A stretch of DNA of 38,497 nucleotides from Actinomycetota bacterium (GTDB lineage: Bacteria; Actinomycetota; Aquicultoria; CAJVYJ01; JAUVQD01): positions 1-38,497 of the forward strand of contig JAUXSL010000104.1 in the NCBI GenBank assembly GCA_030679975.1. Direction: 5' to 3'. Position numbers and translations under genes: made by a program. The number at the start of each line of letters is the position of its first letter. The stretch's first letter is position 1. Below are positions 5,265-26,364 of the stretch, in pieces. The notes beneath the pieces are model-generated. The model did no database searches. It was not told where the DNA came from and saw only the letters and a list, made by a program, of their open reading frames with translations.

Positions 5265-5329
5265 ACAAGACCCCCGATTGAGTCGGAAAGGACGGTTTCC
5301 GCTCGCCGGCCACGGGCAAGCCATTCCTT

Positions 5330-5338
5330 ATAATATCA
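5330..5338 (-). promoter_or_regulatory. Possible extended -10 promoter before uxs
   Basis: On the minus strand TGATATTAT (5338-5330) forms an extended -10 element (TGn-TATTAT). The corresponding -35 region is poor (three of six). It would give uxs a leader of about 58 bases. The 79-base gap (5265-5343) holds nothing else recognisable. Confidence 0.25.
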
Positions 5339-5343
5339 GAAAT

Positions 5344-7848
5344 CTAGTAGACCTTCACTTTAAACGACGGCCGCTTAAGCCCTAAGTCTTTAAACCAAAC
5401 GACCCCCAGCGCGACAATATCGAGCCGGAGCGTATACCGGCCCGGGCGGGGCGGAGTGTCGATGAAGTACGTCTCTGTGTAGCGCTGACCCGGTCCGATA
5501 TCGTAGGCAAGCCCTAGAACCTGCGGGTCTCCCAGTTGCCGCCGGTCCTTGTCGTACCAAAACGCCGCTAAATGGACTTCACCCCGGTCAAAGGGGACCT
5601 CCAAGCTGGCGTCGGGATCGAACTTCACCGTCCAGACCGCCTTGCCTCTATTGACCACACCAATTTTGACCGGCAATTTAGACCCGGCCATGGCCCGGCC
5701 CTCCACCGAGACGCCGGTAAAGCGACCGCCCAGACCATTATTATCGACACTGACCGGCATACCGGCCACGCCGTTGACTTCCATTGAATAGCTTGATTCT
5801 TTGATAAGCGGGGACGACAGATTAATCCGCAGGCGCCGGCGGCCCCGTCCGGCCGGCCCATCGATCTGCGCGCGCATCCAGGTCTCGGCGCCGGGCTCGA
5901 GCACCAGAGGCAGGCGGGGCCAGGCGCTACCGGAACTCCCATCCTGCCAGGTAAATCCGGCGCCGGGCTCCTCGCCCGGTCGCACGACGAGGCGCTCTTT
6001 CGTGGTGTTCAATACACGCCAGGCGATGTTGACCGGTCTGCCGACCGGTGTCGCCGCCGGCGCTCGAAGGCGCGCCGCCACCGACCGGCTTGGCGAATGC
6101 GACGCTTCCGGTCGGACGGCAAAGACAATATCATCCCCGAACCGCCTGACGACCTTAACTCCGGTCACCTTCCCCGCGCGCTTCATCAATGACGCGGCCA
6201 GACGGCGGTTGCCGCCGGTGTGGTAAATCAAGTAATCCACATTCAGCCGCCTTAAAACGGCGGCGCCGGTACCGTCCGGAAAACCCGCCAACACCTCGAT
6301 GATCTGAGCATATTCAGGCGGCGTGTACCCGCTGTAGCCGTTTACCAGCCGATTCCAATGATATGTAGAATAATACAAGTATCGAACATCGGTATTCCAA
6401 CCGCCGACAATGGCGCCTTCTTTAACGTCCACGGACGGGAGCTCGATAATTCTTTTGTCGCTTTGGCCTGCCAGCCACCGGTAGACCGGCGGCACCCGGC
6501 CGAACGAGGGTATCTCCGGCGACAGTTTAAACGGCCAAGTTGCCTGGACGATGACAACACCAAGGCAGGCAGCGACGACCAGGCGACGCTTGAGCGCGGG
6601 CGAAAAGCCGAACCTGTTTCCATAAAGCGCGACTAGCTCCTGCCAGCCGTAAGCGGCCAGAACGACCAGCGATAGAGTGACCAGTATGCCTAATCTGGCC
6701 GGTACCCGTAGCGCCTTGAACCCGGGAAGCCAGCGCCATAAAAACCAATAAGGCATCGTTATACGGGTCGCGCCCCAGGTGACAAACGGACCGAAACTTA
6801 AGACCAGCGCGACCAGACCCAAAAGCAAATAAAAGCGTTTTATTTTGGCCCGCTGGACTACTTCGCCGGACGCCTTGAAAGATCTCCGCCAGGTGATGAC
6901 AGCCGCGACCACGGTCCCCAGGACCGCGAAGACTCCGGGCCACAAAAGATGTTCCCAGTTGACTCCGGCCTTTGGCGCCCAGGCGCCGCCGAAGACTCTC
7001 AGTAAGACGGGGTTGGTTGTCGACAGATAATCGACCGGCTTGGCCGAAAAATAAGCGGTCTCGCCCAGGTTGCGGCTAAAACCCGGCAGCGTACGCGCGA
7101 GCTTCAAGTAGCGTAGAGCGAAGGGAGCGACGCCGGCGCCGACGATCACCGACATTAGCAGGAGCGGGGCGGCCAACTTGCGGTCAAGCCGGATAACCCC
7201 GGCGAAGACAAAAAAGAGTATAAACAAAGCCAGGACAAGCGCCCCGTAGAAACCATAGTACCAGCCCGACAAGGCTTGAAGGGTTAAGAAAACCGCGCAA
7301 AGGGCGGCATCGCGCCGGCGTCGGGCCACCAGCCAGCGGTGGGCGAAATAGACCGTCATCACTAAAAACCCATCCGTCAATAATTGAATATGGCCCATCT
7401 GCGCCATCCGATAGGTGGAAAAAGAATACGCGGCCCCGGCGACGAACGCCACGCCTTCGCTGCCGGTTAAGAATCGGGCGAGCAGAAACATGGCCGTGGC
7501 CGAGAAGACAAAAGAAGCCAGGATGAGCAGGTTGTAGGCGATCATAGGGTTGCCTGACAACAAATTTACCGGCGTGACCAGCAGGGCCGGCGGCAGCAAT
7601 AGGTCGGAGTAGGCGAGCGTGTCCCTGTACGGGTAGAAGATGTTGGCGGCGAAGAGACCGGCCGGATTCGTCAGAAGCGCGTGACTGTCCCAGGCCAAGA
7701 CCCAGGTATTAAAGAGGGGGTCGCCGGCGTCGACCGGCACCCGCGACCCGATCGCCATGAGTAGCGGCCAGGCGACGACCAGGGTGATCAAAAGATAGGC
7801 AACAATTGCCTTGGGCAGGACGGACCGGCGTTTGTCATGAGGAGCCAT
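5344..7848 (-). CDS. Large polytopic membrane protein, GT-C/GT39-like, with C-terminal beta domains
   Basis: The N-terminal half has around ten hydrophobic segments. The first periplasmic loop carries an acidic pair and the DPLFNTWVLAW motif, resembling the catalytic Asp loop of GT-C transferases that use polyprenyl-phosphate sugars outside the membrane. From about residue 480 it becomes soluble and beta-rich, ending in two Ig/CARDB-like modules with GRYTLRLDIVALG near the C-terminus. The family is usually left unnamed. Two starts are possible: ATG at 7848, five bases past the end of ugd, or TTG at 7878 inside ugd, adding ten residues. ATG is preferred. Its likely role is adding a sugar from a lipid donor outside the membrane, inferred only from topology and context. 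Confidence 0.8.
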   Translation of the reverse strand: MAPHDKRRSVLPKAIVAYLLITLVVAWPLLMAIGSRVPVDAGDPLFNTWVLAWDSHALLTNPAGLFAANIFYPYRDTLAYSDLLLPPALLVTPVNLLSGNPMIAYNLLILASFVFSATAMFLLARFLTGSEGVAFVAGAAYSFSTYRMAQMGHIQLLTDGFLVMTVYFAHRWLVARRRRDAALCAVFLTLQALSGWYYGFYGALVLALFILFFVFAGVIRLDRKLAAPLLLMSVIVGAGVAPFALRYLKLARTLPGFSRNLGETAYFSAKPVDYLSTTNPVLLRVFGGAWAPKAGVNWEHLLWPGVFAVLGTVVAAVITWRRSFKASGEVVQRAKIKRFYLLLGLVALVLSFGPFVTWGATRITMPYWFLWRWLPGFKALRVPARLGILVTLSLVVLAAYGWQELVALYGNRFGFSPALKRRLVVAACLGVVIVQATWPFKLSPEIPSFGRVPPVYRWLAGQSDKRIIELPSVDVKEGAIVGGWNTDVRYLYYSTYHWNRLVNGYSGYTPPEYAQIIEVLAGFPDGTGAAVLRRLNVDYLIYHTGGNRRLAASLMKRAGKVTGVKVVRRFGDDIVFAVRPEASHSPSRSVAARLRAPAATPVGRPVNIAWRVLNTTKERLVVRPGEEPGAGFTWQDGSSGSAWPRLPLVLEPGAETWMRAQIDGPAGRGRRRLRINLSSPLIKESSYSMEVNGVAGMPVSVDNNGLGGRFTGVSVEGRAMAGSKLPVKIGVVNRGKAVWTVKFDPDASLEVPFDRGEVHLAAFWYDKDRRQLGDPQVLGLAYDIGPGQRYTETYFIDTPPRPGRYTLRLDIVALGVVWFKDLGLKRPSFKVKVY

Positions 7849-7852
7849 CCCT

Positions 7853-9145
7853 CTACCGGCCGACCCCTTGATAAACAAAACCTAGACGACGCAAATTCTG
7901 CGGGTCCAGGCAATTACGGGTATCGTAGACAACCGCGTTCTTCATCAGGTCTTTTATCCGGCGCCAATCCAGCCACCGAAACTCGTCCCATTCGGTCAGG
8001 ACCAATAATAGGTCGGCGTCGCGAACCGCCTCAAACGGGTCGTCGACGTATTGGACTTGCTCAGGCAGCAGTTCTTTGGCGTTGGCGGCCGCAACCGGAT
8101 CATAGGCTAGAATAGTCCGGCCGCGCTTGGCGACACCGGGGATAACGTCGAGCGCGGGCGCGTCGCGCATATCGTCGGTGTTAGGTTTGAAGGCCAGTCC
8201 GAAGACGCCGATGCGGGCGTTGTAGATCCCGTCCAGAAGCGAATTTGCTTTCTTGGCGATCAACCTCTTTTGATTGGCGTTGATATCCATGACCCCGCGA
8301 AGGAGTTCGAAGTCGTATCCGTGTTCTTTGGCGATATAGATCATCGCCCGGGAATCCTTTGGGAAACAAGAGCCGCCAAAACCGGGCCCGGCCCTTAAGA
8401 ATTCAAACCCTATCCGCTTGTCGTAGCCCATCCCCAGCGCCACTTCCTTAACATCGGCGCCGACCGCGTCGCAGATATTGGCGATAGCGTTTATAAAAGA
8501 TACCTTGGTCGCCAGAAAGCAGTTAGAGGCATACTTTATCATCTCGGCGCTGGCCGCGTCCGTTATGACTAGGGGCGCGTTAAGCGGCCGGTATAGTTCG
8601 GCCATCAAGCCGGCGGCCCTCTGGCTGTCGGTGCCGACCACTATGCGATCGGGGTGCATGAAGTCCTCGACCGCGGAACCTTCCCGCAGGAACTCAGGGT
8701 TGGAGATGACGTCGAATTCTCGCGGGTCGCTCAAATTTTCCTGAATGACTTTAGCGACCAAAATCGTCGAGCCGACCGGCACAGTGCTTTTATTGACGAT
8801 TATCTTATAGCGATCTAGGCTGCCGGCAATCGTCTTAGCCACCACTTTGACGTAACGCATGTCGGCGCCGCCGTTTTCATCCGACGGCGTGCCGACCGTG
8901 ATGAAGATGATATCGGCGCTGCGGACACCCTCGGCCACGTCGGCGGAGAAAGTTAGCCGCCCGTCAGCCATGTTGACCGCTATAAGGTCCTCCAGGCCGG
9001 GCTCAAAGATGGGTATCTTGCCCGTCTGCAACCGCGCTATCTTAGCTTCGTCGATATCGACACCCGTGACCTCATGCCCGATGTGGGCCAAGCAAGCGCC
9101 CGTAACTAAACCGACGTAGCCTGAACCGATAGTCGTTACCTTCAA
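7853..9145 (-). CDS. ugd: UDP-glucose 6-dehydrogenase
   Basis: This 430-residue protein has the complete family pattern: the NAD-binding GSGYVG at residues 7-12, NKSTVPVGST near 118-127, NPEFLREGSA at 149-158, and the active-site cysteine C260 in GFGGSCFPKD. It oxidises UDP-glucose twice with NAD to UDP-glucuronate in the cytoplasm and feeds the UDP-xylose synthase two genes downstream. The start is TTG in a four-base TTGA overlap with the stop of the upstream GT2, with AAAGGAG seven bases before it, consistent with coupled translation. Confidence 0.95.
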   Translation of the reverse strand: MKVTTIGSGYVGLVTGACLAHIGHEVTGVDIDEAKIARLQTGKIPIFEPGLEDLIAVNMADGRLTFSADVAEGVRSADIIFITVGTPSDENGGADMRYVKVVAKTIAGSLDRYKIIVNKSTVPVGSTILVAKVIQENLSDPREFDVISNPEFLREGSAVEDFMHPDRIVVGTDSQRAAGLMAELYRPLNAPLVITDAASAEMIKYASNCFLATKVSFINAIANICDAVGADVKEVALGMGYDKRIGFEFLRAGPGFGGSCFPKDSRAMIYIAKEHGYDFELLRGVMDINANQKRLIAKKANSLLDGIYNARIGVFGLAFKPNTDDMRDAPALDVIPGVAKRGRTILAYDPVAAANAKELLPEQVQYVDDPFEAVRDADLLLVLTEWDEFRWLDWRRIKDLMKNAVVYDTRNCLDPQNLRRLGFVYQGVGR

Positions 9146-10518
9146 GTGGTTGCTCCTTTATTAGATTCCTGCTGGCGCAGGAATGACACTTCCTGCATCG
9201 CATCCGGTAAAAAGTGTACATATATTCGCCTGATTGTCGCTATATCGAAGATGGGGTTACCGGTCTGATCCACGAGGGGCGGCAGCTCGGGCCAGAGCTC
9301 AAATAAGACCCCGTCTTTCAATACCCGGGTTTTTTGTATTCGGCGCCGCTCGATCATGACGCCGGGCAACCCGGTTAAAAACCGCAGCCAAGCCCGGGTA
9401 TAAGTCCAAGCCATGCCGACATCCCGGTGCTTGACGCTCCTTAAGAACCCCCTGATATCTTCTTTAGCGTAGTTTCTCATGAAATTCAGCCACGTTCCCT
9501 TGGATAGGTTCTTGGTGATAAACCGGAGCCGGTTGCCGATAACCAGTTGCCATTTAAAGTTAGGTTCCAGCGATTTCATGCTGGCGTTGAATTTATGATA
9601 AACGCGGGCGCCGGGAGCGAAGTATATTTTCAATCCCGCCAGTCTGGCCCGGTAAGACCAGTCGGCGTCCTCATAATAAAACTTATACTTGGGATCGAGC
9701 AACCCGACCCTGTCAAGCGCCTCCCGGCCTATCATCACCGCGCCGAAGCAAGCGCTGAAGACTTGCTCGGTCGTATCGAACTGCCCGATATCAAGATATC
9801 CGATATAATTGTCGGTCCCCCACCCCTTCGGCCAGACTGAATTACCGATGGCGTTGAGGAACTTCGGCAGCCGCCAGAGGTACATCTTAGGCACGACCGC
9901 CGCCAGGTCCGGTTTGCCGGCGGCTTCGGCCACCAGCCGGCTGACGCAATCGTCAGCCAACTCCGTATCGTTGTTTAGCAGAAACATATATTCGCCGGCC
10001 GCTTCGGCGATGCCGATATTGTTGCCGCCGGAAAATCCGGCGTCTTTTTTCAAGACTATGACTTTGGCATCTGGGAAGAACTCTTTTAGCAAGGCCGTCG
10101 AGTTGTCTTTAGAGCAGTTGTCGACCATCACTATCTCGATGTTGGGATAGTCTTGTCGCGCCAAAGACGGCAACAGAGTGCTTAAATGCTCCTCGCCGTC
10201 GCGGTTGACGATGACCACCGAGACCACGGGACCGACCATGGCCGGAGCGGATGATGCGACCCGCGGGACCGCTTCATCCGTCTGCAGAACATCGGCCGCC
10301 TCCATCAGACTCAAGGCCGCTCCAAGCAGCCAGTCTGAAATCGTCAGTCGCCGGGACAGCTCCTGCTTGATCTGGGGAAACGTCCGTCCGTCGGCTTTTT
10401 CCCAAATAGCGTTGACCAGCCTGTCGGTCCTTATCCGGGCGCCGTTCTGGTGTCTTAAGTAATAGGCCTTGCCGTCCCGCTTGACCCGGAACGATTTGTT
10501 AGTCAGATACGTTTTCAG
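9142..10518 (-). CDS. GT2 glycosyltransferase (WbbL/rhamnosyltransferase-like) with N-terminal winged-helix/PqqD-like domain, apparent CTG start
   Basis: The catalytic part has VSVVIVNRDGEE, the DNCSKDN loop, LNNDTEL (metal-binding region) and YYEDADWSYRARLAG, the pattern of WbbL-type rhamnosyltransferases. Conventional starts begin at TTG 10314 or ATG 10305. The same frame is open for 68 more codons, back to CTG at 10518, and encodes a compact domain with RTDRLVNAIWEKADGRTF and ALSLMEAADVLQ, resembling a winged-helix or PqqD-like fold. The CTG overlaps the stop of the upstream GT4 as CTGA and follows AGGCGG at seven bases. An in-frame stop lies at 10557, so no upstream ATG is possible. TTG 10314 has GGAG at five bases and stays an alternative. 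The C-terminal 12 residues are encoded by an inverted-repeat element. Confidence 0.75.
   Translation of the reverse strand: MKTYLTNKSFRVKRDGKAYYLRHQNGARIRTDRLVNAIWEKADGRTFPQIKQELSRRLTISDWLLGAALSLMEAADVLQTDEAVPRVASSAPAMVGPVVSVVIVNRDGEEHLSTLLPSLARQDYPNIEIVMVDNCSKDNSTALLKEFFPDAKVIVLKKDAGFSGGNNIGIAEAAGEYMFLLNNDTELADDCVSRLVAEAAGKPDLAAVVPKMYLWRLPKFLNAIGNSVWPKGWGTDNYIGYLDIGQFDTTEQVFSACFGAVMIGREALDRVGLLDPKYKFYYEDADWSYRARLAGLKIYFAPGARVYHKFNASMKSLEPNFKWQLVIGNRLRFITKNLSKGTWLNFMRNYAKEDIRGFLRSVKHRDVGMAWTYTRAWLRFLTGLPGVMIERRRIQKTRVLKDGVLFELWPELPPLVDQTGNPIFDIATIRRIYVHFLPDAMQEVSFLRQQESNKGATT
9165..9189. repeat. Short inverted-repeat element inside the 3' end of the GT2 gene
   Basis: ATTCCTGC (9165-9172) and GCAGGAAT (9177-9184) form a perfect 8-base inverted repeat around a TGGC loop, followed by GACAC and by TTCCTGCATCGCATCC. 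A longer relative, with the same outer arms and the same GACAC, stands at 19,248-19,294. It encodes the VSFLRQQESN tail of the GT2 protein. Confidence 0.6.
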
Positions 10519-11747
10519 TCCAGCACCGCCTTGTAGTAAATCGACCTGAACTTTTTAGCTACAATCTCCCAGGTATAGTTCTTCAAGACATGCTTCCTGC
10601 CTTCCTCGGCCATCCGGCGCCGCAGGTCGACGTCGAAGATAAGCTCAAGAAGCGCCCCGGCCAACTCCCGGTGGTCTTTGTAGTCGACCAGAATGCCGTT
10701 GAGACCGTCGGAGATAACCGATGGTACAGCGCCGGAGCGACAGCCTATGACCGGTTTGCCCGCCGCCCACGCCTCCAGATACGTGATGCCGAACGACTCA
10801 AACCCCGACGGCGAAGCAAAAATATCGCCGGCGGCGATGATCTCCGGTTTTTCGTCCTCTTTAAAATCATTAATAACGATGATCTTGGCCCGCTGCTCCG
10901 GTTCGAATCCGCCGATGATGGCGTCAAGAACCTCAGCGTATTTTGTCCGCGAGCCGGCGATCATCAGCCGCGCTTCAGGCGCTTGCCGCCAGACCAAAGG
11001 CATCGCTTTTAGCAACGTCTCAATGCCCTTATGTCCCCCTTGCTGGCCGACGAACGTGACGACCGGATGATCGCTAAGACCATATTGGTCCCGGATACCG
11101 ATCCCCGTGGCCCCGGCGTATTTATCCGGGTCGGTCCCGACTCCGACGACGTGGATCTTTCGACCGTCTATGTCTTTGCCAAGTAAAAAATCGCGCTCGT
11201 AGTTGGTGTTGGCTATGTAGGCGTCGGCTTTCTCGATAGAACGATAGATTATCTTGCGGTCGAATCCCCAACCATCCTGGGGGTGAAGCCCGCCGTGAAG
11301 CACCAAGGGTACGCCGAGACGCCGGGCGGCCGTCGCCGCATAATGCATATGCATCAACGGAAACGACGAAGCGCAAACGACGTCCGCCTCGATCTTGCCC
11401 ATCTCCCTAAGCAACCCCGGCAAGATCGGCCCGCTGTAGACGGTCCTTATGAGGTCGTTACGCGGCCAACGCCACTTATAACTGACTTTCTGCGCCAGGT
11501 TCAAGGCCGGGGCCAGCTGATTGAAGACCTTAAATCGGACGACCTTAACTCCGTCTATCACTTCGCGGCCGGGCTCCATAGTCTTGACGCCGCGATGGTT
11601 GAAAACCTCGCAATTGTAAGCGTTCGTCGTGTAGACGGTCACATCGTCACCGTAATGATTGACTAATTGCTCGGAAATCCTTTGCATCAGATATTCCGTG
11701 CCGCCGATAGCGGGTTTATAGCCTTGAACAAAATGAGCTATTTTCAT
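10515..11747 (-). CDS. GT4 family glycosyltransferase
   Basis: This 410-residue GT-B enzyme starts with MKIAHFVQGYKPAIGG, a typical acceptor-side Gly loop (GGTEYLMQRI). Its donor half carries VTFVGQQGGHKG near 228-239 and SPSGFESFGITYLEAWAAGKPV near 312-333, the GT4 E-x7-E region. It probably adds one residue to the glycan using an NDP-sugar in the cytoplasm. Its ATG overlaps the stop of the preceding glycosyltransferase gene as ATGA, and its TGA is shared with the CTG that seems to start the next GT2, so three glycosyltransferases are chained by overlapping codons. Confidence 0.9.
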   Translation of the reverse strand: MKIAHFVQGYKPAIGGTEYLMQRISEQLVNHYGDDVTVYTTNAYNCEVFNHRGVKTMEPGREVIDGVKVVRFKVFNQLAPALNLAQKVSYKWRWPRNDLIRTVYSGPILPGLLREMGKIEADVVCASSFPLMHMHYAATAARRLGVPLVLHGGLHPQDGWGFDRKIIYRSIEKADAYIANTNYERDFLLGKDIDGRKIHVVGVGTDPDKYAGATGIGIRDQYGLSDHPVVTFVGQQGGHKGIETLLKAMPLVWRQAPEARLMIAGSRTKYAEVLDAIIGGFEPEQRAKIIVINDFKEDEKPEIIAAGDIFASPSGFESFGITYLEAWAAGKPVIGCRSGAVPSVISDGLNGILVDYKDHRELAGALLELIFDVDLRRRMAEEGRKHVLKNYTWEIVAKKFRSIYYKAVLD

Positions 11748-13150
11748 AAGTTTGGTTTTTCCGGCTTGGCCCGCCGGCCGATTTTCCTCAAAGACTTGCC
11801 GACCACCGCCGATATGCCCTCGTTCTTATAGACCTCGCGAGCTTTTGCCCAGGCTTTTTGCGTTTGGACCGGCTGTTTTTCAAGTAGCCGAGCATGTTCT
11901 TCAAACGTATCGACGGCCGGAAGTATTTCGGCCGCCAGCGCCGGGTCGCGCCGGTCGGCGGCGACTCTTGGCGCGGCGCAAAAATCAGCCAGCGGCTTTA
12001 TGACCACGGACCATGTCAACTCGGTCGAGGCGAGCGCTTTGGCGGCCGCCGACATCCCGGCCCGCTTGTCGTCATCGCCTAAGATATCGACGATGGTCGA
12101 AGCCAGCGCCGCCGGATCCCCGACCGGCACCGTTTCGCCGCAGCCACGGCGCGCCAGCATCTCCCCGACGGCATCACCCGCGGAGGTTATCGCCGGCAGG
12201 CCGCCCCAAAGAAAATCGACGACCCTGGTCCGATGAGACAGCTCCGTCTCCAAACTTGGTTTGTGGGTTGTAACCGCCAGATCCGATTCCAAGTACCAGT
12301 CGGCCCGGTCGCTGTAGGGCTGCCAATCGACAAATAAAATATGCTTATCGGCTAATCCCAGCTCTTGCGCCCGAGACTTGGTCCGCCGGAACTCGCCATC
12401 AGGCGCGTGGCCGCGAGGATGCACGCCGCCTAAGATCACCAGCATCGCCTTCGGTTCGGCCTCGATGACCCGGGGCATCGCTTCAACCAGAGTGTAGGCG
12501 TCAAACCAAGGATATATCCCGCTAAACCAGAGGATGACTTTGGCATCCTTCGCAACCAATGAGCCGCGCATCACCGTTCTGGTCTTGGCCGCCGGTTGGT
12601 GATCGACGCCAAACGGCACTATCTCCAGGATGCGCTCCCGGTAGGTGAGGGGATTTATCCGGCCCAGGGTATTTAAGACGCCCAGATAATAATATTTTTG
12701 CCGCTCATTGGCGCAGAAAAAATAGTCGCCGCGCTTTAATATGGGAACCACCCCGGCCAGGTAACCGGCGAATGAACGAGCGCCGGCGGCATCGGCGGGT
12801 TGCAAGCCGATGTTTTCAATCAAGACCGGATCATAAAGATCGACAGCCGTCGGGATGGCCGGGTCGGCCGCGGCCCTGTACGTCGTAGACAGGCCGCTGT
12901 GCACGTGGGGCATGACCACACAATCATAGCCGCCGGCGAGCCCGGCGATATTATCCAATTCCCAAGCGACCGTCCGGCACGGAGCTTCATTGTCCTCGAC
13001 AAAATCAGCGGCGGGAACGGCCAAAGTAACATCATGACCGTAATCGTTCGCCAGACTCCTGGCCATTTGCCAGTAGCGAATGCCGGGCCCGGCCGCCAGG
13101 ACCCCTGAGCCCGGAACGGCGTCGGGAGAGATCACCAGTACTTTTGACAA
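11744..13150 (-). CDS. GT-B glycosyltransferase (GT4-like)
   Basis: The 468-residue protein has a GT-B layout: an N-terminal half with GPGIRYWQMARSLA near residues 22-35 and a donor half with ILWFSGIYPWFDAYTLVEAM near 208-227, LVILGG and SDLAVTTHKPSLETELSHRTRVVDFLWGG-type text near 290-315, where the usual E-x7-E element is replaced by a variant seen in a subgroup of GT4 proteins. The last 60 residues are basic and probably peripheral. The start is TTG; the best ribosome-binding match, AGGTGA, is 12 bases upstream, rather far. It is followed by a GT4 gene in a four-base overlap. Confidence 0.8.
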   Translation of the reverse strand: MSKVLVISPDAVPGSGVLAAGPGIRYWQMARSLANDYGHDVTLAVPAADFVEDNEAPCRTVAWELDNIAGLAGGYDCVVMPHVHSGLSTTYRAAADPAIPTAVDLYDPVLIENIGLQPADAAGARSFAGYLAGVVPILKRGDYFFCANERQKYYYLGVLNTLGRINPLTYRERILEIVPFGVDHQPAAKTRTVMRGSLVAKDAKVILWFSGIYPWFDAYTLVEAMPRVIEAEPKAMLVILGGVHPRGHAPDGEFRRTKSRAQELGLADKHILFVDWQPYSDRADWYLESDLAVTTHKPSLETELSHRTRVVDFLWGGLPAITSAGDAVGEMLARRGCGETVPVGDPAALASTIVDILGDDDKRAGMSAAAKALASTELTWSVVIKPLADFCAAPRVAADRRDPALAAEILPAVDTFEEHARLLEKQPVQTQKAWAKAREVYKNEGISAVVGKSLRKIGRRAKPEKPNL

Positions 13151-13186
13151 AATGTTAAGTTTTCACCTACTTATAGCAGACCCGGC

Positions 13187-14248
13187 CTATTTCGGCCGCT
13201 GCGCCTTGCTGAGCTTGGTGTATATCTTGTAAGGCAGAAAATTACGGACTCTGGCGACCAGAGCGTGGAGCTCATCCAGGCTTTCGTTTTGGGCTTTGAT
13301 CACGTTTCTTAAGTCCTCCATCTGCCGGTCCCGGTCGGCCAGAGCCCCCTGAGCGGCCTGGAGCTCCTCCGTCATGGACCCCTTAAGCTGGTGAACGAGC
13401 TCGCTGACATCGCGCTTTAGGTCAACATCCAAAAGATCGGTCATCATCCGGAACATCTCCAGCTTGGCGCCATCGTCGGTGGCCGTCGCGGCGTCAGCCG
13501 CGACCTTAAACGATTGACAGAAAGCCGCCGGCCGTTTGTCGCCTGTCTTCGAGCCGATGACGACCCGCCGGTAACTAGGGGGCCGATGATCGTCGGCGGA
13601 AAAATTCAAGTTGTAAAAGAGGTCTACCCGGCGATGAAGGTCGGCTGTATCGGGGTGGGCCAGCAAATGGTGCTTGGCCACCATCATCGGCAACCAATTG
13701 TAAAGATAGCCGCTGTGAAAACCGGATGCGGGGACACCAACGTCTTTGAGCCAGGCTATTGTCTGGTCATAATCGGGCAGTCCGTTATCGAGGTGTTCCT
13801 TTAAAGTGGTAAACTCGGCCCGCAAGACCTTCCAGACATAGCTAAAAAGTATCTCCTCGGCCAGATGGGTGCGCTCGTCGGCGAACGGCGCGGTCAACAA
13901 GATGAAGTCTTTGGAAACCCGGGCCAACTCGGCGATAAAACTCGGTCGCTCCGCTTCCGCCACGTGTTCCAGGGTGTCGCAACTGCAGACCAGATCAAAC
14001 GCCCCGTCATCGAACGGCAGCTTGGCGCCGCTAGCCTGGACATAATTTGGAATATCGCCGGGGAGCACATCCACGACGGTGACGTCGTCATCAGGGAGAA
14101 AATCAAGGATCAAGCCGGGATAACCGCCGACATCCAGGACCTTCATTGTTCCGCCCGGAACCGGGCGGACAAAGTCGACAAAGTCGTGGACGGTTTTGTA
14201 CCGCTGGAACTGGTCGAACGGCAGCTCAAACAGGTCCGGCCGAATCAT
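13187..14248 (-). CDS. SAM-dependent methyltransferase with C-terminal coiled coil (possible chain-cap enzyme)
   Basis: The N-terminal 200 residues are a class I methyltransferase: motif I VLDVGGYPG at residues 37-45, the acidic end VVDV at 58-61, LPFDDGAFDLVCSCDTLEHV near 77-96. After a linker, residues about 285-335 form a heptad-rich, charged coiled coil (AQGALADRDRQMEDLRNV and onward). The C-terminus is basic. The gene starts in an ATGA overlap with the stop of wzt. In ABC-exported O antigens such as E. coli O9a, a methyltransferase-containing protein (WbdD) with a coiled-coil ruler caps the chain and Wzt recognises the cap. The layout fits such a role, which is inference; there is no kinase domain here. 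Confidence 0.8.
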   Translation of the reverse strand: MIRPDLFELPFDQFQRYKTVHDFVDFVRPVPGGTMKVLDVGGYPGLILDFLPDDDVTVVDVLPGDIPNYVQASGAKLPFDDGAFDLVCSCDTLEHVAEAERPSFIAELARVSKDFILLTAPFADERTHLAEEILFSYVWKVLRAEFTTLKEHLDNGLPDYDQTIAWLKDVGVPASGFHSGYLYNWLPMMVAKHHLLAHPDTADLHRRVDLFYNLNFSADDHRPPSYRRVVIGSKTGDKRPAAFCQSFKVAADAATATDDGAKLEMFRMMTDLLDVDLKRDVSELVHQLKGSMTEELQAAQGALADRDRQMEDLRNVIKAQNESLDELHALVARVRNFLPYKIYTKLSKAQRPK

Positions 14249-15513
14249 TTCTTCTCCCGGCCGCTTTTAAGCTCCCAGGCGCAGGGCAAATAGAATATGC
14301 CGTAATCATTCAAATCTCCGGACGAGACGTTAAACAGGTAGCGGCGATCATGATGGTCGTAGGCATGCAAGCAAGCGAAGTCGTAGACCACGGTCGACAG
14401 CACATAATTTCCCTTCAACAACGGCAAGGCCTCGATTATATATTTAACCGTCCCATTACCTTTAATTTTATCAAAAACCGTTTTAGAGAACTTTGTGTTC
14501 GTGCCGTTTATATGAACCCCGTCCCGAGCGTGAATAGCAATGCCGAAAACCGGCCGTCTGATCTCTTCTTTTGCTTCATAATCCATTTCAACGATTAAAG
14601 TTTCCCCGGTCTTAAAAAGCCGACGCTTCTTGCCGCCCCCATCGAGAACCCGAACGCCGGTTATCTTAACCTCGCCGGAGCCCCAACGAGTGCCGAATTC
14701 TTCTTCATCCCGACTTTTTTGACCGGATTTAGCTTCCTCCCGACGATTGACCTCCTCCAGGTAGGTTTCGACAACACCGCGGGCTGAACCTTCGGCCCTC
14801 ATTTCGCCGTGTTCCAGCCACACGGCCTCATCACAGATGCTGCGAACCGATTCGAGCGCGTGCGAAACGACAACGATCGTTTTGCCTTGTTCTTTAAGAT
14901 CATAAAGCTTATTTAAGCATTTGCGCTGGAAGGACTCGTCACCGACAGCCAGTATCTCATCGATCAATAACACATCCGGCTCGACATTGATGGCAACGGC
15001 AAAACCAAGGCGGACGTACATGCCTGACGAATAATTCTTTACAGGAGTGTCGATAAACTTATCAAGCTCTGAAAAGCTGATTATCTGATCAAGCTTGGCC
15101 GCTATCTCGCTCTTGGTCAAACCCAGAATAGAGCCGTTTAGAAAAACAATTTCCCGCCCTGTTAGGTCCGGGTGAAACCCGGCGCCCAATTCAAGCAAGG
15201 CCGACACTTTGCCGTCTATCCGCACCGAGCCCCGCTTCGGCCGCAAAATCTTGGCCAGTATTTTTAGCATTGTGCTCTTGCCGGAGCCATTTTCGCCGAT
15301 CAGCCCGAGAGTCGACCCCTCCTTGACGGCAAACGAAACGCCCTTGAGCGCCCAAAAGGTATCATAAGCGGAGCGGCCGCGCAGCAACGTCTCTTTTAAG
15401 CTTGGGTTGCGCTCTTTGTAGACCTTAAAAGTCTTCCAAACATCATCGGCTTCGATAACCGTCGGCCGGTCAAGCCCTGTTTCCGTTGTTTTATCCCAAA
15501 TGCTTGCCATCAT
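14245..15513 (-). CDS. wzt: Polysaccharide ABC exporter ATP-binding subunit with C-terminal carbohydrate-recognition domain (Wzt/TagH-like)
   Basis: The 422-residue protein has a full nucleotide-binding domain: Walker A GENGSGKST at 73-81, signature YSSGM at 161-165, Walker B VLLIDE at 181-186, and switch His218 in VVSHAL. Residues from about 270 form a beta-rich Wzt_C-like module (FGIAIHARDGVHINGTNT) that in O-antigen exporters binds the modified non-reducing end of the glycan. It pairs with the permease 17 bases upstream. Two adjacent ATG codons exist; AGGTG is two bases before the first and five before the second, so 15,510 may be the true start. Confidence 0.93.
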   Translation of the reverse strand: MMASIWDKTTETGLDRPTVIEADDVWKTFKVYKERNPSLKETLLRGRSAYDTFWALKGVSFAVKEGSTLGLIGENGSGKSTMLKILAKILRPKRGSVRIDGKVSALLELGAGFHPDLTGREIVFLNGSILGLTKSEIAAKLDQIISFSELDKFIDTPVKNYSSGMYVRLGFAVAINVEPDVLLIDEILAVGDESFQRKCLNKLYDLKEQGKTIVVVSHALESVRSICDEAVWLEHGEMRAEGSARGVVETYLEEVNRREEAKSGQKSRDEEEFGTRWGSGEVKITGVRVLDGGGKKRRLFKTGETLIVEMDYEAKEEIRRPVFGIAIHARDGVHINGTNTKFSKTVFDKIKGNGTVKYIIEALPLLKGNYVLSTVVYDFACLHAYDHHDRRYLFNVSSGDLNDYGIFYLPCAWELKSGREKK

Positions 15514-15530
15514 CGCACCTACTAATTGGG

Positions 15531-16355
15531 CTACACTTCCTCCGCGAAATCCGGCTCGAGCCTGATAAAGACAATGTAGCCGAGCAAGAACATAATGCTC
15601 GCCGCGGCAGCCGAATAAGCCATATAATGCCAGTTTGGAACCGCCAACACATTATCCGCATTGCCATACAGTATACTTTTAAATGATAGCACTATGTCTG
15701 CCATAGGGTTCAGCATATAGATGATCCCGAACTTACCGAACATGCCCGGATTAAATTTATAGATGATCGGCGTGCTGTAGAACAAAACCATTAATATAAT
15801 TCCTATTATGTGCTGAATGTCCCTAAAATAGACGTTAAGCGACGCCGCCATCAACGACACACCCAGTGTGAATACAAAAAGAATCGGCAGCAAAACCAAT
15901 AATATAGGCAGAAATTTGTAAAAACCAAGAAAGCGCGTTAAAAACAAGCCGCTTCCCAAAACAAAAACAATGAGAACTAATAACTCAAGCGCAAAATTGA
16001 CCAAATTGGCCACAGCGATGGAAATCGGCAAAAGCTCTCTCGGAAAGTAGACCTTCTTTATCAGCGCCCCGTTACCCACAATAGAGGTGGTCGAGCCGAC
16101 AACCGTAGCATTAAAAAAATTCCAGGGCAGTAAGCCGGCCAAAAAAAATATCGGAAAGTTGTCAATTCCTTTCGCGGCTACTCTCAGGGGGGATACGGTA
16201 AAGAGAACAGTAAAAACGATCATCATCAGAATCGGATTAAGCAGCGACCAGAAGAACCCCAAGACGGAATTCTTGTATTTTACTTTCAATTCCTTCTTGG
16301 CGAAATTCAGAAGCAGTTCTTTATATTTGAACAAGCTTTTTAGTTGATCTACCAT
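15531..16355 (-). CDS. wzm: Polysaccharide ABC exporter permease (Wzm/TagG-like)
   Basis: This 274-residue ABC-2 type membrane protein has a basic, amphipathic N-terminus (FAKKELKVKYKNSVLGFFWSL, an interface-helix pattern), then about six hydrophobic helices and the family segment SLNVYFRDIQHIIGIILM near 191-208. With Wzt it moves undecaprenyl-linked glycan across the membrane. ATG directly follows the rmlD stop, with AAGG five bases before. Hand counts of two 60-base rows inside the gene give about 37-38% G+C, against about 62% in a row of the neighbouring rmlD, hinting at separate ancestry. Confidence 0.92.
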   Translation of the reverse strand: MVDQLKSLFKYKELLLNFAKKELKVKYKNSVLGFFWSLLNPILMMIVFTVLFTVSPLRVAAKGIDNFPIFFLAGLLPWNFFNATVVGSTTSIVGNGALIKKVYFPRELLPISIAVANLVNFALELLVLIVFVLGSGLFLTRFLGFYKFLPILLVLLPILFVFTLGVSLMAASLNVYFRDIQHIIGIILMVLFYSTPIIYKFNPGMFGKFGIIYMLNPMADIVLSFKSILYGNADNVLAVPNWHYMAYSAAAASIMFLLGYIVFIRLEPDFAEEV

Positions 16356-17186
16356 TTAGGCCTTAAAGTAAGCCGCCAGCGCTTCTTCCCAAGGACGCAT
16401 CGGCGCCAGGCCTTGAAGCTCCAGGCTCAAAGGACGCAGAACCGAATACGCGGGCCGCGGCGCGGGCCGTTCCATTTGAGTGCTGTCGATCGGCTGCAGG
16501 TCGACATCCATCCCGGCCAGCTCGAATATCTTCCCGGCGAAACCGTACCACGATACCTCGCCGACATTAGTCGTGTGATAGACTCCGAACCGGCCGCTTA
16601 AGGCGATTTCAGCCAGCTTGGCCGCTAAATCGACGGCGTTTGTCGGGCTGCCGATCTGATCGTCCACGACGCGGACGGTCTTGCCCTCTTCGCCCAACTT
16701 GAGCATGGTCTTGACAAAATTGTGCCCGTAACGGCCATAGAGCCAGGCCGTCCGGCAGATATAATAATTGTTGGTCAGCGATTGGACATACCGCTCGCCG
16801 GCCAGCTTTGAGCGCCCGTAAACACTTAATGGATTTACGTCGTCAAATTCGTTATACGGAGCGCCCTTCGTCCCGTCAAAAACAAAATCGGTGCTGACAT
16901 ACAAAATAACCGCGCCGACGGCGCGAGCGGCGACACTAAGGTTTTGCGTCCCCACAGCGTTGACCTTAAAAGCGATGTCGGGGTTGAGTTCGGCTCCGTC
17001 GACATCCGTATAAGCGGCGCCGTGCACTATCAAATCAGGGCCGAAACAGGCGACCTTTTCCATCACCGCGGTGAAATCGGTGATATCGATCTCTTCAATA
17101 TCCACCGGGTAGAGTTCATGACCGCGCAGCGCCCCTTGGAGTTCCGTGCCCAGTTGACCGTCGGCCCCGGTAATGATGATTTTCAT
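16356..17186 (-). CDS. rmlD: dTDP-4-dehydrorhamnose reductase
   Basis: This extended SDR protein of about 276 residues has the NADPH-binding GADGQLG near the N-terminus, HGAAYTDVDGAE and the YVSTDFVFDG segment, and the catalytic YGRSKLAGE (Tyr-x3-Lys). It performs the last step of dTDP-L-rhamnose synthesis. A GTG at 17,195 adds three residues; the ATG at 17,186 is chosen because the family begins at MKIIITG. It is separated from rmlA, rmlC and rmlB by the DUF3048 gene and followed directly by the ABC exporter. Confidence 0.93.
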   Translation of the reverse strand: MKIIITGADGQLGTELQGALRGHELYPVDIEEIDITDFTAVMEKVACFGPDLIVHGAAYTDVDGAELNPDIAFKVNAVGTQNLSVAARAVGAVILYVSTDFVFDGTKGAPYNEFDDVNPLSVYGRSKLAGERYVQSLTNNYYICRTAWLYGRYGHNFVKTMLKLGEEGKTVRVVDDQIGSPTNAVDLAAKLAEIALSGRFGVYHTTNVGEVSWYGFAGKIFELAGMDVDLQPIDSTQMERPAPRPAYSVLRPLSLELQGLAPMRPWEEALAAYFKA

Positions 17187-17196
17187 CCGCTTCACG

Positions 17197-18246
17197 CTAC
17201 TGGATGGTGATGGCGGTCGTCGGCCTGACTATTTCAATCCAGGTCTGGCCCGGCGATAAGCGGATACCGTCACCGTTGCTGTTTATTAATTTCAGCGGCG
17301 AGTTATGCGTCGGCTTTTCCCAAGTGCCTTCAACAACCCGACCGTCGCGGAAGACCATAAGGCTGCCGGTCCCTTCCATGTTTATATCCAAGACGCCGCT
17401 GCCGCCGGGAATGTCGTTAGTGGGAGCGCGCAGAACCGCGATATTCGTCGGCGCCAACTGGAGCTTGCTGTTGGCGTCCGTATGCGGCTTGCCCCCGTTG
17501 AACCTTTTATAAGTATTGGTCTGACGATCGTATTGGTATTCCACGCGATATTCAGAGGTGGAAAAGTCGATTGCCACGCTCTTCGGGCCTTGCGGCCGCG
17601 CCTCTATCGGCGGCGCCGGCTTAAATTTAAAGCCGCGGTCGAAAATATCCCCGCCGTCTTTATACCTGGAAGCCGCTTCGCGCAATCGCGCCGTCGAAGT
17701 GAAGACGTTGTGCGGCGCCTTTGTCCAGCCAACGCGGGTATATGCGTCCGCAAGGCCCATCTGGTCCCAATCTTTGATACCCCAGTCACGGATCGCTTTC
17801 ATGGCGTAGATCGAGCCGCCGACGTGCGCGTATATCGCGTCCCAACCGCTGGCCAGGGCCGCGAAGTGCACCCGGGCGCTCCGGACCGGCCCGATATTAT
17901 CGGCGCCGTGAAAGCCGAAGACCAACATGAACCTGGTGATGCCGCCTTCCGCCAAGCCTTCCACTACCACGCAGGCGCTGCCCAGGCCGGCCTGAGGCCG
18001 GATAGTCGAAAGATTCTCGACCATGACGGCCAGAGGTCTGGTTACCCCCTGGACGTCGCCGGCCTCACCGTCGAGTGGGCAAATAGTCTTGTCTTTTTTA
18101 TGTTTGGGCTTCTTCTTTTCAGTCGCGATCTTTGTCTTTTTCGGCTTGGGCGCCGGGAAGAAACTGGGGTAGGCGATGCCGACGACTACCCCCAAAACTA
18201 TGACTACACCGGCAATACCGCCGATGATCCGCCACTTAGAATTCAA
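17197..18246 (-). CDS. DUF3048 (YerB-like) membrane-anchored protein
   Basis: The 349-residue protein has one N-terminal hydrophobic segment (residues 9-31) and a Lys-rich linker. It then carries the DUF3048 body: RPLAVMVENLSTIRPQAGL near 70-88, GGITRFMLVF, GPVRSARVHF and DAIYAHVGGS. The family occurs mainly in Gram-positive bacteria as surface lipoproteins; no enzymatic activity is established. There is no lipobox Cys here, so it is probably a signal-anchored extracellular protein. The start is TTG immediately after the rmlB stop, with GGAGGGAG about eight bases upstream. Its place between rmlB and rmlD suggests a link with wall-glycan assembly, which is inference. Confidence 0.88.
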   Translation of the reverse strand: MNSKWRIIGGIAGVVIVLGVVVGIAYPSFFPAPKPKKTKIATEKKKPKHKKDKTICPLDGEAGDVQGVTRPLAVMVENLSTIRPQAGLGSACVVVEGLAEGGITRFMLVFGFHGADNIGPVRSARVHFAALASGWDAIYAHVGGSIYAMKAIRDWGIKDWDQMGLADAYTRVGWTKAPHNVFTSTARLREAASRYKDGGDIFDRGFKFKPAPPIEARPQGPKSVAIDFSTSEYRVEYQYDRQTNTYKRFNGGKPHTDANSKLQLAPTNIAVLRAPTNDIPGGSGVLDINMEGTGSLMVFRDGRVVEGTWEKPTHNSPLKLINSNGDGIRLSPGQTWIEIVRPTTAITIQ

Positions 18247-19218
18247 TTAAGAGACTCCCTCCTGCTTTAACCTTCGCCACCAGGACTCGTTTGCTTTGTA
18301 CCAGTCCACAGTGGTCAGAAGCGCCTCGTCAAAACCTTTGGCCGGCGCCCAGCCCAGTTTAGCGGTCCGGCTGGAATCGATTGAATACCGCCGATCGTGC
18401 CCGAGCCTATCCGGCACATACGTTATCAGCGACTCCGGCTTGCCCATGATCTTAAGTATTTTGAGAGCAATGGCGATATTTTCAACTTCCATGCCCCCGC
18501 CGATATTATATATCTTACCGACATCACCCCGGTGGAGAACCGCGTCGATACCGGCGCAGTTGTCCTCGACGAAGATCCAGTCCCTGACATTCTTGCCGTC
18601 GCCGTAGATCGGCAAGGGGTTGCCGGCCATGGCGTTAGTGATCAACAACGGTATCAGTTTCTCCGGGTATTGGTACGGCCCGAAATTATTTGAGCTGCGG
18701 GTGATGATCACCGGCATCCCATAGGTAGTCATGTAAGATAGACAGACGAGGTCGGACGAGGCCTTGCTGGCCGAATACGGACTGCTCGGCAGCAGACAGT
18801 CTTTTTCCGTGAACGAGCCCTTGTTACGGCTCCCGTAGACCTCATCGGTCGAAACATGGATAAACCTTGAAGGTACAACCGCCCTGGCCGCTTCCAGTAA
18901 TGTCTGCGTGCCCACAACGTTTGTGGTCATAAATTCCCGTGCCGACTTTATCGAACGATCGACGTGGCTTTCAGCGGCGAAGTTTATAACCGCGTCGCAA
19001 CCCCGCATAACGTAGACGGCTTTGTCTATATCGTCTATGTCGGCATGGACAAAGTCGTAGTTCGGCGAACCCTCGAGGTCTTTTAAGTTGTCCGGATTGC
19101 CGGCGTAAGTCAATTTATCGTAATTGACCACTCCGTAGTTCGGATATTTGTTCAATATATAGCGGATAAAATTGCTGCCGATAAAACCGGACCCGCCGGT
19201 TACCATTATTTGTCGCAT
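18247..19218 (-). CDS. rmlB: dTDP-glucose 4,6-dehydratase
   Basis: This 323-residue extended SDR has GGSGFIGSNF at residues 8-17, YDKLTYAGNPDNL near 34-46, HVDRSI and the catalytic YSASKASSD with the STDEVYG element. These are diagnostic of RmlB, which turns dTDP-glucose into dTDP-4-keto-6-deoxyglucose using bound NAD. It stands 135 bases after rmlC; that gap holds a repeat element rather than a gene. Confidence 0.96.
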   Translation of the reverse strand: MRQIMVTGGSGFIGSNFIRYILNKYPNYGVVNYDKLTYAGNPDNLKDLEGSPNYDFVHADIDDIDKAVYVMRGCDAVINFAAESHVDRSIKSAREFMTTNVVGTQTLLEAARAVVPSRFIHVSTDEVYGSRNKGSFTEKDCLLPSSPYSASKASSDLVCLSYMTTYGMPVIITRSSNNFGPYQYPEKLIPLLITNAMAGNPLPIYGDGKNVRDWIFVEDNCAGIDAVLHRGDVGKIYNIGGGMEVENIAIALKILKIMGKPESLITYVPDRLGHDRRYSIDSSRTAKLGWAPAKGFDEALLTTVDWYKANESWWRRLKQEGVS

Positions 19219-20935: not shown

Positions 20936-21961
20936 TTACCGCCGCTCCGCGCGGCTGCCGGCGCCGTTCAAAACGACAACGCTTGAGCTGTTGCCTGTCA
21001 TCGATATCTTACCAGATTCTATTTGCGACTTCATTCCCTTGATCGAGCGGCCGGCTTCGATCGCCCCTAAGATCGCGCTCAAGGCGCCACGGTCCGGCTC
21101 TACATAGCTTATACCGCCGATTATCGTCGGCCGGCCGGGCAGGGTGATAGTCTCTATGCGGTCTTTCGGCAGTTGCCTCAGGAAGCCGCCGAGCGAGAGC
21201 ATCTGCCTTTTGCTCATATCCGTGCCGATATTTTCATCAAAGATTCGAATAATCGTCGGCAGCTTAAAAATAGCTTTGACATTTAATGTGTTAGCCGCCA
21301 GCGCCCGGAGAAAAGTCTGCTGCCTGTCGGCCCGGTCAAAATCTGAATCGCCATGGCGATACCTGACATAGTTTAGGGCGGTCGTGCCGTTCATATGCTG
21401 CGGGCCCTTGGGGATAAACATCCGATACGCGAATGTCCGGTCGTTGATCCCTTTGGGCACCGTGATATCAATACCGCCTAAGGTATCGACTAATTTCTTG
21501 AAGCCCTGGAAATCAACCTCCACGTAATGGTTAATATCGACACCAAGAAAGCTTTCCACTGTGCGGATCGCCAGCGATGCCTGCCCGTAGGCGTAAGCCG
21601 CGTTTATTTTATCCTTGCCGCGACCGGGAATATCGACCCTGGTGTCCCGGGGGATCGACATCAAGTAGACCCGGTTCCGGTTAAAATCGACCCGCATGAA
21701 GATGAGGGTATCGCTTCTGGCGGCTTCACCGCGGCGGGAATCGCTGCCTATCAAGACGATGTTGACAGGGTCGCCGGAAACTTTTGGTTCACTTAAAATA
21801 CCGGGAGCGATACGGGAAACTAGGCCGGCGCCGCCGGATGAAGACGAACTTATCCACAAGCCGAAAACCACGCCCGCGATAAGCGTCAAAGCCGCCGCCG
21901 TAAGAAAAACTCTTCTTGTTTTGACTTTTCGGCGCAGCAGCTTAGCTTCTCTTGTTTCCAC
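20936..21961 (-). CDS. LytR-CpsA-Psr (LCP) family glycan ligase
   Basis: The 341-residue protein has a short basic cytoplasmic tail, one transmembrane helix near residues 17-37 and the extracellular LCP domain: NIVLIGSDSR near 68-77, RSDTLIFMRVD, MSIPRDTRVDI near 97-107, KINAAYAYG and the LGGIDITVPKGIND segment. Conserved Arg and Asp residues that bind the polyprenyl pyrophosphate are present. LCP proteins transfer lipid-linked glycans onto peptidoglycan. Next to rml genes and an ABC exporter it is the likely attachment enzyme. The start is GTG with GAGG eight bases upstream. Confidence 0.93.
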   Translation of the reverse strand: METREAKLLRRKVKTRRVFLTAAALTLIAGVVFGLWISSSSSGGAGLVSRIAPGILSEPKVSGDPVNIVLIGSDSRRGEAARSDTLIFMRVDFNRNRVYLMSIPRDTRVDIPGRGKDKINAAYAYGQASLAIRTVESFLGVDINHYVEVDFQGFKKLVDTLGGIDITVPKGINDRTFAYRMFIPKGPQHMNGTTALNYVRYRHGDSDFDRADRQQTFLRALAANTLNVKAIFKLPTIIRIFDENIGTDMSKRQMLSLGGFLRQLPKDRIETITLPGRPTIIGGISYVEPDRGALSAILGAIEAGRSIKGMKSQIESGKISMTGNSSSVVVLNGAGSRAERR

Positions 21962-24445: not shown

Positions 24446-26364
24446 TCTTTAAAAAACCTGACCTTTACCTCGGCAACCCTATTATTCGTATTTGTCAGCA
24501 GCAATGACGTAGCGAACCCCTCGCCCGTAAAACCTTCGGCAAACAACCAGCGCTTCGCGGGAGACGTCGAGCCGAGCGAATCGCCGCCGCCCTGATAGAC
24601 GTTCGTATCAAAGTATACAGACCTTTCCGCCACGACGGGCAAATCCGCGGTCAGCCGCAGACCAATATTCTTGCCGAGACCGGCCTCGTCCGCGCCGCCG
24701 ACATTTATTGTCTGCCGCGTCCGGCCCGGTACTATTCTTTTCGTCTTGCGCAGTCCGCCGCCGGAGGTAAGATAACGGATGGTTATCGTCGTCGCCGCGG
24801 CATTAGGGTTCTGTACAGTCAAGAACTCCTCATATCCGGGTTTCGTCGACCCGTCGGCGAAATACCAGGTTTTTGCCGGATTGACCGCGCCTACAGAACT
24901 GCTCCCGCCCGTCGTGCCGTTGCGGGTAAAGTAGACCGATCTCTCGGCCACAATTTTAACGTCCGAAAGAACTATCGCCGATACATCCGTTTCGGGTAAT
25001 TGATCGTTGACGCGGATAGACCGGCGGCTGTAAGGGGGTACCTCCATCGGCGCCCCCGCGACGTCTCCCGCCGGAGTCATGTAGTTGATGCGCACGTGGG
25101 CCGGCCAGGGGCTGGGATTAAAGAGCAACAGCCAGATGTCGGATTGCGGGCCGGTCCGGCCCTCGGCAAAATACCAGGAAGACGCCGGTTTCTGCACGCC
25201 GATCGAAGAATGACCGCCATTGACTCCGCCGGAATTAAAATACATAGTCCGCTCAACCACTACCGGGCCGGCGGCCGTCACTTTTGTGGCGAACGAGCGA
25301 TTGGGCAAGATAGAGTTGACATGAACGCTTCGGCGGCTAAGCGGTGGAAGCTTTACCGTACCGCCGTCTATCACGCTCCCGTCCGCGAAATACGTTACCT
25401 TGGCTACGGTGGCTTTGGTGGTCGGGTTGGCCAGCAAGACCAAAGTGTCGAAGCCCGGCCCCGTAAAACCCTCGGCCAGATACCAGACCCGACCGGCTTG
25501 CCGCGCCCCCCGGCTGCTTGAGCCGCCGCTGACACCGTTAGAGTTAAAGTACATCGCCCTCTCGGCCGTTATCGGGAGATTGGAAGTCACGCGCTGGCCG
25601 ACGGCTATCCCGTAAAAATACGCGTTCAGGTCGACCCTGCGCCTCGTGTGCGGTTTAAGCTTAAAGCTCACGCCGGCAGGGCCGGGGCCGGCAGGGCCGA
25701 CAAAGCGCCGGATACCTTTGGCAACGCCTTGCGCGACCTTCTGTCTAAAACCCGGGCTTTTAAGCAGGGCTTCCTCGATGGGATTGCTGATGAAGGCGCC
25801 CTCCAGGAGCGCCGCCGGCATCTCCGTGCGCCTTAAGACATAAAAATTGGCGCTCTTTACCCCCCGGTCATACAGACCGACCTGGGCTTTAACTGCTTCC
25901 TGAATAAATCGCGCCAATCTGGCGCTGTCCGAATCGGAGCTTAGGGCGTTCCAAAAGTATGTCTCGGTCCCCCGGGCGGACGCTCCGAAGGCATTGTTGT
26001 GAATACAGACAAAGACTTTCGCTTTGGCCTTATTGGCGATATCGACGCGCGCTTGCAGATCGTCGGAGACATTTATAAAGCCGTCGCCCGTTAAATCTTT
26101 AGCCGGGGTATTTGGCGAAATGTCAGTCGTGCGAGTCATGATAACGGTGTAGCCGTTGTTAGCGAGCAGATCGCGAACGCGCAAACCAATATCGAGGTTG
26201 GCTGTCTTTTCCGCGAACCCGGTCGGCCCGACCGCGCCGGTGTCCGCGCCGCCATGCCCCGGATCTATGACTACCGGACCGGGATTAGCCGAAGCCGTTA
26301 GAGGCAACAAGAGAAAAAGGGCTACTCCTAAGGCTGATTTGAAGAAGAATCGCTTTTTTAGCAC
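24442..26364 (-). CDS. N-acetylmuramoyl-L-alanine amidase (Amidase_3) with four C-terminal WYFAEG repeats
   Basis: The signal peptide ends near residue 26. The Amidase_3 domain spans 30-222 with the zinc ligands His36 (DPGHGG), Glu52 and His122 (IHNN) and catalytic Glu188 (LLEGAFISN). It cleaves the bond between muramic acid and the peptide stem. An EF-hand-like loop (D90 to D101, DLTGDGFINVSD) interrupts the domain. Residues 233-640 are four beta repeats, each with ERxxYF (269-273, 371-375, 474-479, 580-585) and WxxAEG or WYFADG (294-299, 397-402, 500-505, 606-611). The start is GTG with AGAGG six bases before it. It is translationally linked to the SpoIID-like gene, so the pair probably cooperates in wall turnover. 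Confidence 0.93.
   Translation of the reverse strand: MLKKRFFFKSALGVALFLLLPLTASANPGPVVIDPGHGGADTGAVGPTGFAEKTANLDIGLRVRDLLANNGYTVIMTRTTDISPNTPAKDLTGDGFINVSDDLQARVDIANKAKAKVFVCIHNNAFGASARGTETYFWNALSSDSDSARLARFIQEAVKAQVGLYDRGVKSANFYVLRRTEMPAALLEGAFISNPIEEALLKSPGFRQKVAQGVAKGIRRFVGPAGPGPAGVSFKLKPHTRRRVDLNAYFYGIAVGQRVTSNLPITAERAMYFNSNGVSGGSSSRGARQAGRVWYLAEGFTGPGFDTLVLLANPTTKATVAKVTYFADGSVIDGGTVKLPPLSRRSVHVNSILPNRSFATKVTAAGPVVVERTMYFNSGGVNGGHSSIGVQKPASSWYFAEGRTGPQSDIWLLLFNPSPWPAHVRINYMTPAGDVAGAPMEVPPYSRRSIRVNDQLPETDVSAIVLSDVKIVAERSVYFTRNGTTGGSSSVGAVNPAKTWYFADGSTKPGYEEFLTVQNPNAAATTITIRYLTSGGGLRKTKRIVPGRTRQTINVGGADEAGLGKNIGLRLTADLPVVAERSVYFDTNVYQGGGDSLGSTSPAKRWLFAEGFTGEGFATSLLLTNTNNRVAEVKVRFFKE

Follow-up and report, generated by a model that had tools for sequence, protein, structure and literature searches.

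Domains of the RRE/PqqD type (PF05402; for example, TbiB1, 5v1v, and TruD, 4bs9) are used to flag new RiPP clusters whatever their class. According to two RRE-Finder surveys, a strict RRE is defined by the secondary-structure order βββ–ααα (PMC12710340), winged helices often cause false RRE calls (PMC12710340, PMC7470986), and RRE–glycosyltransferase fusions, including those with PF00535, are named in passing as possible RiPP enzymes (PMC7470986, PMC12710340). A GT2 with an N-terminal extension about as long as the one described here is also found in MftF, the mycofactocin glycosyltransferase (TIGR03965), and the combination of Wzm, Wzt, rml genes, GT4s, GT2s, and a methyltransferase is that of Wzm/Wzt assembly of the S-layer/O-antigen type, as in the Geobacillus wsa cluster (PMC2943079). 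The stretch of DNA analyzed here (38,497 nucleotides; hereafter, the window) contains a locus of the latter type, and it differs from that type in having an RRE-like domain on its GT2. To our knowledge, such a domain on a GT2 is not known from Wzm/Wzt glycan loci. The gene and its operon neighbors comprise the following features.

7853–9145, minus strand: UDP-glucose/GDP-mannose dehydrogenase (PF03721/00984/03720), downstream gene with TTGA overlap
9142–10518, minus strand: whole RRE-like–GT2 gene, 458 aa (open frame and in-frame relatives)
9145–10230, minus strand: GT2 (GT-A) catalytic domain followed by the C-terminal part, residues 97–458 (PF00535, E = 2e-23, residues 100–271)
10279–10518, minus strand: predicted RRE/PqqD-like winged-helix domain, residues 1–80 (AlphaFold2 pLDDT 92–96; RREs as PDB fold matches; kept in 27 proteins)
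10516–10518, minus strand: putative start codon CTG, overlapping the GT4b stop as CTGA (no conventional start before TTG 10314; ATG/GTG of relatives at the homologous overlap)
10526–10532, minus strand: AAGGCGG, Shine–Dalgarno-like by its sequence, 7 nt before the CTG
10515–11747, minus strand: GT4b, operon neighbor (Pfam GT4/GT1; 45–48% identity to Chloroflexota neighbors)
11744–13150, minus strand: GT4a, homologue fused to RRE–GT2 in eight Chloroflexota proteins (BLAST E = 1e-54 to 1e-74)
13187–14248, minus strand: methyltransferase (PF08241) that, by its sequence, ends in a heptad-rich, coiled-coil-like C-terminal tail
14245–15513, minus strand: Wzt, ABC ATPase with Wzt_C (PF00005, PF14524)
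15531–16355, minus strand: Wzm, ABC-2 polysaccharide exporter permease (PF01061)

On the minus strand, the GT2 gene lies in a frame that is open between the stops TAA (10557–10555) and TGA (9144–9142) and that contains no ATG, GTG, or TTG upstream of TTG 10314 as far as this TAA, in agreement with the original prediction, which had extended the gene from TTG 10314 back to CTG 10518. The CTG (10518–10516) shares bases with the TGA (10517–10515) of the preceding GT4b gene, and the Shine–Dalgarno-like motif that had been given as AGGCGG, seven bases ahead of this CTGA overlap, reads AAGGCGG at 10532–10526; the ATGA and TTGA overlaps cited as parallels in the operon are likewise present, at 11747/11744 and 9145/9142, respectively. 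Taken alone, the open 68-codon frame is weak evidence of coding; the chance of 68 open codons at 56% GC is ~0.076, and chance CTGA overlaps occur too (five in 493 kb of contigs from the window's genome, most near a conventional start). The extension nevertheless stands above chance, because relatives carry a homologous extension in frame and nonsynonymous change in it is less than synonymous change. Among 36 genomes of the class, it was found (E = 4e-35 or better) in the seven that belong to the order of the window and in no others, and it aligns in frame in 7/7 genomes sampled from the family and order. Homologues starting at the TTG position would have spoken against the prediction, but they begin upstream of it; in four same-family genomes, the start is ATG (G001 and G003) or GTG (G002 and G004) and forms an ATGA or GTGA overlap with the stop codon of the homologous preceding GT4 gene, where the window has CTGA. 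Synonymous exceeds nonsynonymous change across the extension in every comparison, and the synonymous-site bias anticipated for a coding extension is seen in close pairs as a dominance of third-position differences (for codon positions 1, 2, and 3, respectively, the close pair L003/L004 has 1, 0, and 11 differences, and L002/L005 has 7, 2, and 9). Sequence comparison thus confirms the N-terminal extension as real coding sequence under purifying selection.

By position and homology, CTG 10518 is the sole plausible codon from which translation would give the conserved N-terminus, no conventional start doing so. Initiation at TTG 10314 would destroy the domain, because this codon corresponds to residue 69, inside helix 3. 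Ribosomes finishing the upstream GT4b may reach CTG 10518 through the CTGA overlap (reinitiation), with AAGGCGG ahead. In our judgment, the chance of a true CTG start in the window's genome is about three in four; the case for it is made by the position of the codon and by homology, in a contig that is a MAG assembly, where a strain variant at this one base may also occur. Start codons very seldom change to CUG (2 of 61,358 from AUG and 1 of 5,080 from GUG; PMC5622118), and CUG initiates poorly in vitro (PMC11497404), so that a base error in the MAG or a recently lost start has to be weighed. Position 10518 would then really be A or G, or the protein would start at TTG 10314 without the N-terminal domain, an explanation that gains from the ATG or GTG found in all readable close relatives and from the MAG origin of the contig, whereas the cut through helix 3, the Shine–Dalgarno-like AAGGCGG, and the absence of visible decay in the domain (48–51% identity to same-family relatives) make it somewhat unlikely. 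No second CTG case equally clear was found in the 493 kb of the window's genome. At L277:7729 (+) of the same genome, another CTGA overlap directly follows AAGGCGG and may be a second CTG start; a conventional start is found upstream of it, and the next one downstream is 21 codons away.

The original prediction had recognized a winged-helix/PqqD-like domain by eye from the sequence and had proposed structure prediction as a check. In the AlphaFold2 model, built from 27 sequences of the N-terminal domain, residues 1–80 fold confidently (pLDDT, 92–96; pTM, 0.75), with strands at residues 10–15, 18–23, and 28–31, helices at 33–42, 47–55, and 62–74, and short strands at 3–6 and 78–80. The resulting order, ββββαααβ, contains the βββ–ααα order of a strict RRE. 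In a Foldseek search against the PDB, the top match was the RRE of TruD (E = 5e-4; probability, 1.0), followed among the best matches by TbiB1 (TM, 0.62/0.66), TigE, TfuB1, PbtF, CteB, and the MccB peptide clamp, including the lasso-peptide RREs of TbiB1 and TfuB1; TruD, TbiB1, and TigE all matched with a probability of 1.0 and TMq of 0.59–0.66, at E-values that are modest even at best (5e-4). The fold read by eye is thus borne out by AlphaFold and Foldseek. A profile–profile alignment with PqqD was collinear over the domain (80%; E = 1e-5). Pfam and NCBIfam gave nothing significant on the N-terminal domain, the GT2 part alone being matched, and PF05402 itself gave no match to the window protein; one of nine relatives reached E = 0.019. 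The RRE/PqqD fold is well supported by the model, and the N-terminal domain is best described, at the level of predicted structure, as an RRE/PqqD-like domain on a GT2, too divergent for the Pfam PqqD family. It resembles known RRE/PqqD domains in the winged-helix order, size, fold match, and collinear alignment, and is unlike them in lying below Pfam detection, in having no RiPP precursor or enzymes nearby, and in being carried by the GT2 of a polysaccharide locus.

A PDB sequence search with the N-domain profile returned only weak matches to the MelC caddie and to regulators; ORFs of ~150–170 aa matched by the same profile were Rrf2-type regulators by eye, not stand-alone PqqD; and PF05402 matches on Chloroflexota ORFs of ~400–600 aa were of the radical-SAM type by eye and unrelated to the GT2 family. 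MftF was rejected as the parent architecture, as no N-terminal similarity was detectable in a comparison with four MftF sequences; the window protein scores 54.1 bits with TIGR03965, over the GT2 part only, against a cut-off of 280. A full-length AlphaFold2 model (seven rows; mean pLDDT, 59) was too low in confidence for the domain arrangement to be read. Foldseek also matched the N-terminal domain to 8hkr, 7vzu, and 9s2t, namely the mycobacterial methyltransferase Rv2067c and the carbamoyltransferases GdmN and NovN, in which RRE-like folds reside on enzymes outside classical RiPP loci.

The catalytic part of the protein exceeds the gathering threshold of PF00535 (83.5 versus 23.3 bits) and contains the GT2 motifs NND at residues 182–184 and YEDADW at 282. 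In Chloroflexota (Anaerolineales and relatives), a search with the N-domain profile recovered this domain N-terminal to GT2s, and the domains of the two phyla are homologous as judged by hhalign (98%; E = 2e-13, over the whole domain). The gap in the HMM search was clean, with members at 6e-18 or better and all else at 0.2 or worse. When 81 GT2 domains were placed on a tree, the 21 with an RRE-like domain clustered, with a single Moraniibacteriota GT2 as the only intruder, and the RRE label changes twice as compared with 18.8 times in shuffles (quick search). From these comparisons, the RRE-like domain marks one GT2 subfamily in the window's Actinomycetota order and in Anaerolineales (Chloroflexota). 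The Moraniibacteriota GT2 adjoining the RRE-bearing clade (L046:5716-7605) has a short N-terminal stretch, KGLYILNRLGILN, seemingly an eroded domain. At L234:2509-5308 (G060), two neighboring genes each place an RRE-like domain ahead of a GT2; the GT2 of the second gene is very divergent.

The operon of the window contains Wzm, Wzt, rml genes (named from homology of their reading frames), a methyltransferase, two GT4s, and a nucleotide-sugar dehydrogenase. Eight Chloroflexota proteins are fusions of the RRE–GT2 with a GT4, for which GT4a was the best match among the window proteins in 8/8 cases (E = 1e-54 to 1e-74); a homologue of GT4b (45–48% identity) lies within two genes after the fusion in six of the eight loci, and Wzt or rml genes occur near several of them. 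This pattern of fusion and neighborhood (Rosetta stone) therefore places the RRE–GT2 in polysaccharide assembly, and RRE–GT2, GT4a, and GT4b are, by gene content, a conserved set in loci for surface polysaccharides exported by the ABC system Wzm/Wzt, both in the window's order and in Anaerolineales. A 1407-aa protein at L220:6931-11151 (G746) consists of an N-terminal glycosyltransferase-like part, a coiled-coil-like stretch, an RRE-like domain, a GT2, and a GT4.

The protein thus begins, as predicted, with an RRE/PqqD-like winged helix of ~80 residues, which a short linker joins to the catalytic GT2 domain. In the explanation that we favor as a whole (probability, about 0.6), this 458-aa protein belongs to a polysaccharide locus, likely starts at CTG, and uses its N-terminal domain to dock a partner. 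The docking itself is our best guess at the function of the domain; its RRE-type strand-and-helix groove would hold a linear segment of a glycan-assembly partner, and thereby position the GT2 within the complex. Were the domain a true RRE, the GT2 would instead glycosylate a ribosomal peptide or protein, the leader or tag of which the domain binds. The fold is of the same kind as that of peptide-binding RREs, and RRE–PF00535 glycosyltransferase fusions have been proposed as possible new RiPP enzymes (PMC7470986, PMC12710340); this family shares with those fusions an RRE-type domain joined to a GT2, but is tied to Wzm/Wzt loci and GT4 partners. A RiPP role becomes less likely because the intergenic gaps of ≤36 nt from 5325 to 19218 leave no place for a precursor gene in the operon, and because no PqqD match was found in the 96% complete genome of the window (G000). 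Together with the neighbors in both phyla (Wzm/Wzt, rml genes, and GT4s) and a fusion partner that is another glycosyltransferase, these observations make a true RRE quite improbable; the locus, judged by its gene content, is not a RiPP locus.

Another explanation is that the domain is a structural or dimerization winged helix without ligand, derived from a transcription-factor-like HTH. The conserved positions (Tyr4, Gly26, Asp32, Trp39, Ala75, and Leu78), by reading mostly core or turn residues, fit this explanation, as do weak profile matches to Rrf2 winged helices, which are biased since those Rrf2 proteins were picked by the same profile. We consider it unlikely, as the top matches among solved structures are RREs and not regulators, and the domain is a stable part of one subfamily across two phyla.

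RRE–GT2 fusion as such has already been noted in the RRE surveys, and no text linking RRE–glycosyltransferase fusions to polysaccharide export loci was found in the open-licence literature. Beyond the favored docking explanation, we tentatively suggest, at somewhat less than even odds, that the RRE fold has moved out of peptide biosynthesis and serves, in two phyla, as a permanent docking module within a polysaccharide-assembly complex formed by RRE–GT2 with GT4a and GT4b beside Wzm/Wzt. RRE-based mining would be systematically misled by a conserved RRE–GT2 family that resides in ABC-exported polysaccharide loci, and such a family would be a case of a peptide-gripping fold turned to organizing glycosyltransferases; in the window, the full domain would be hidden from annotation by its probable start codon, which is outside the gene finder's list. 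GT4a is an improbable docking target because the RRE-like domain is kept in the GT4a fusions, and the target is probably GT4b, the methyltransferase tail, Wzt, or an acceptor carrier. The heptad-rich tail of the methyltransferase (13187–14248) is a candidate partner for the RRE-like domain, and such a tail on a methyltransferase encoded beside Wzt recalls chain-terminating methyltransferases with coiled-coil rulers. Elsewhere in the window, two large genes at 22016–26364 share a W(F/L)FAEG motif, appear surface-protein-like, and adjoin an LCP-family gene (20936–21961).
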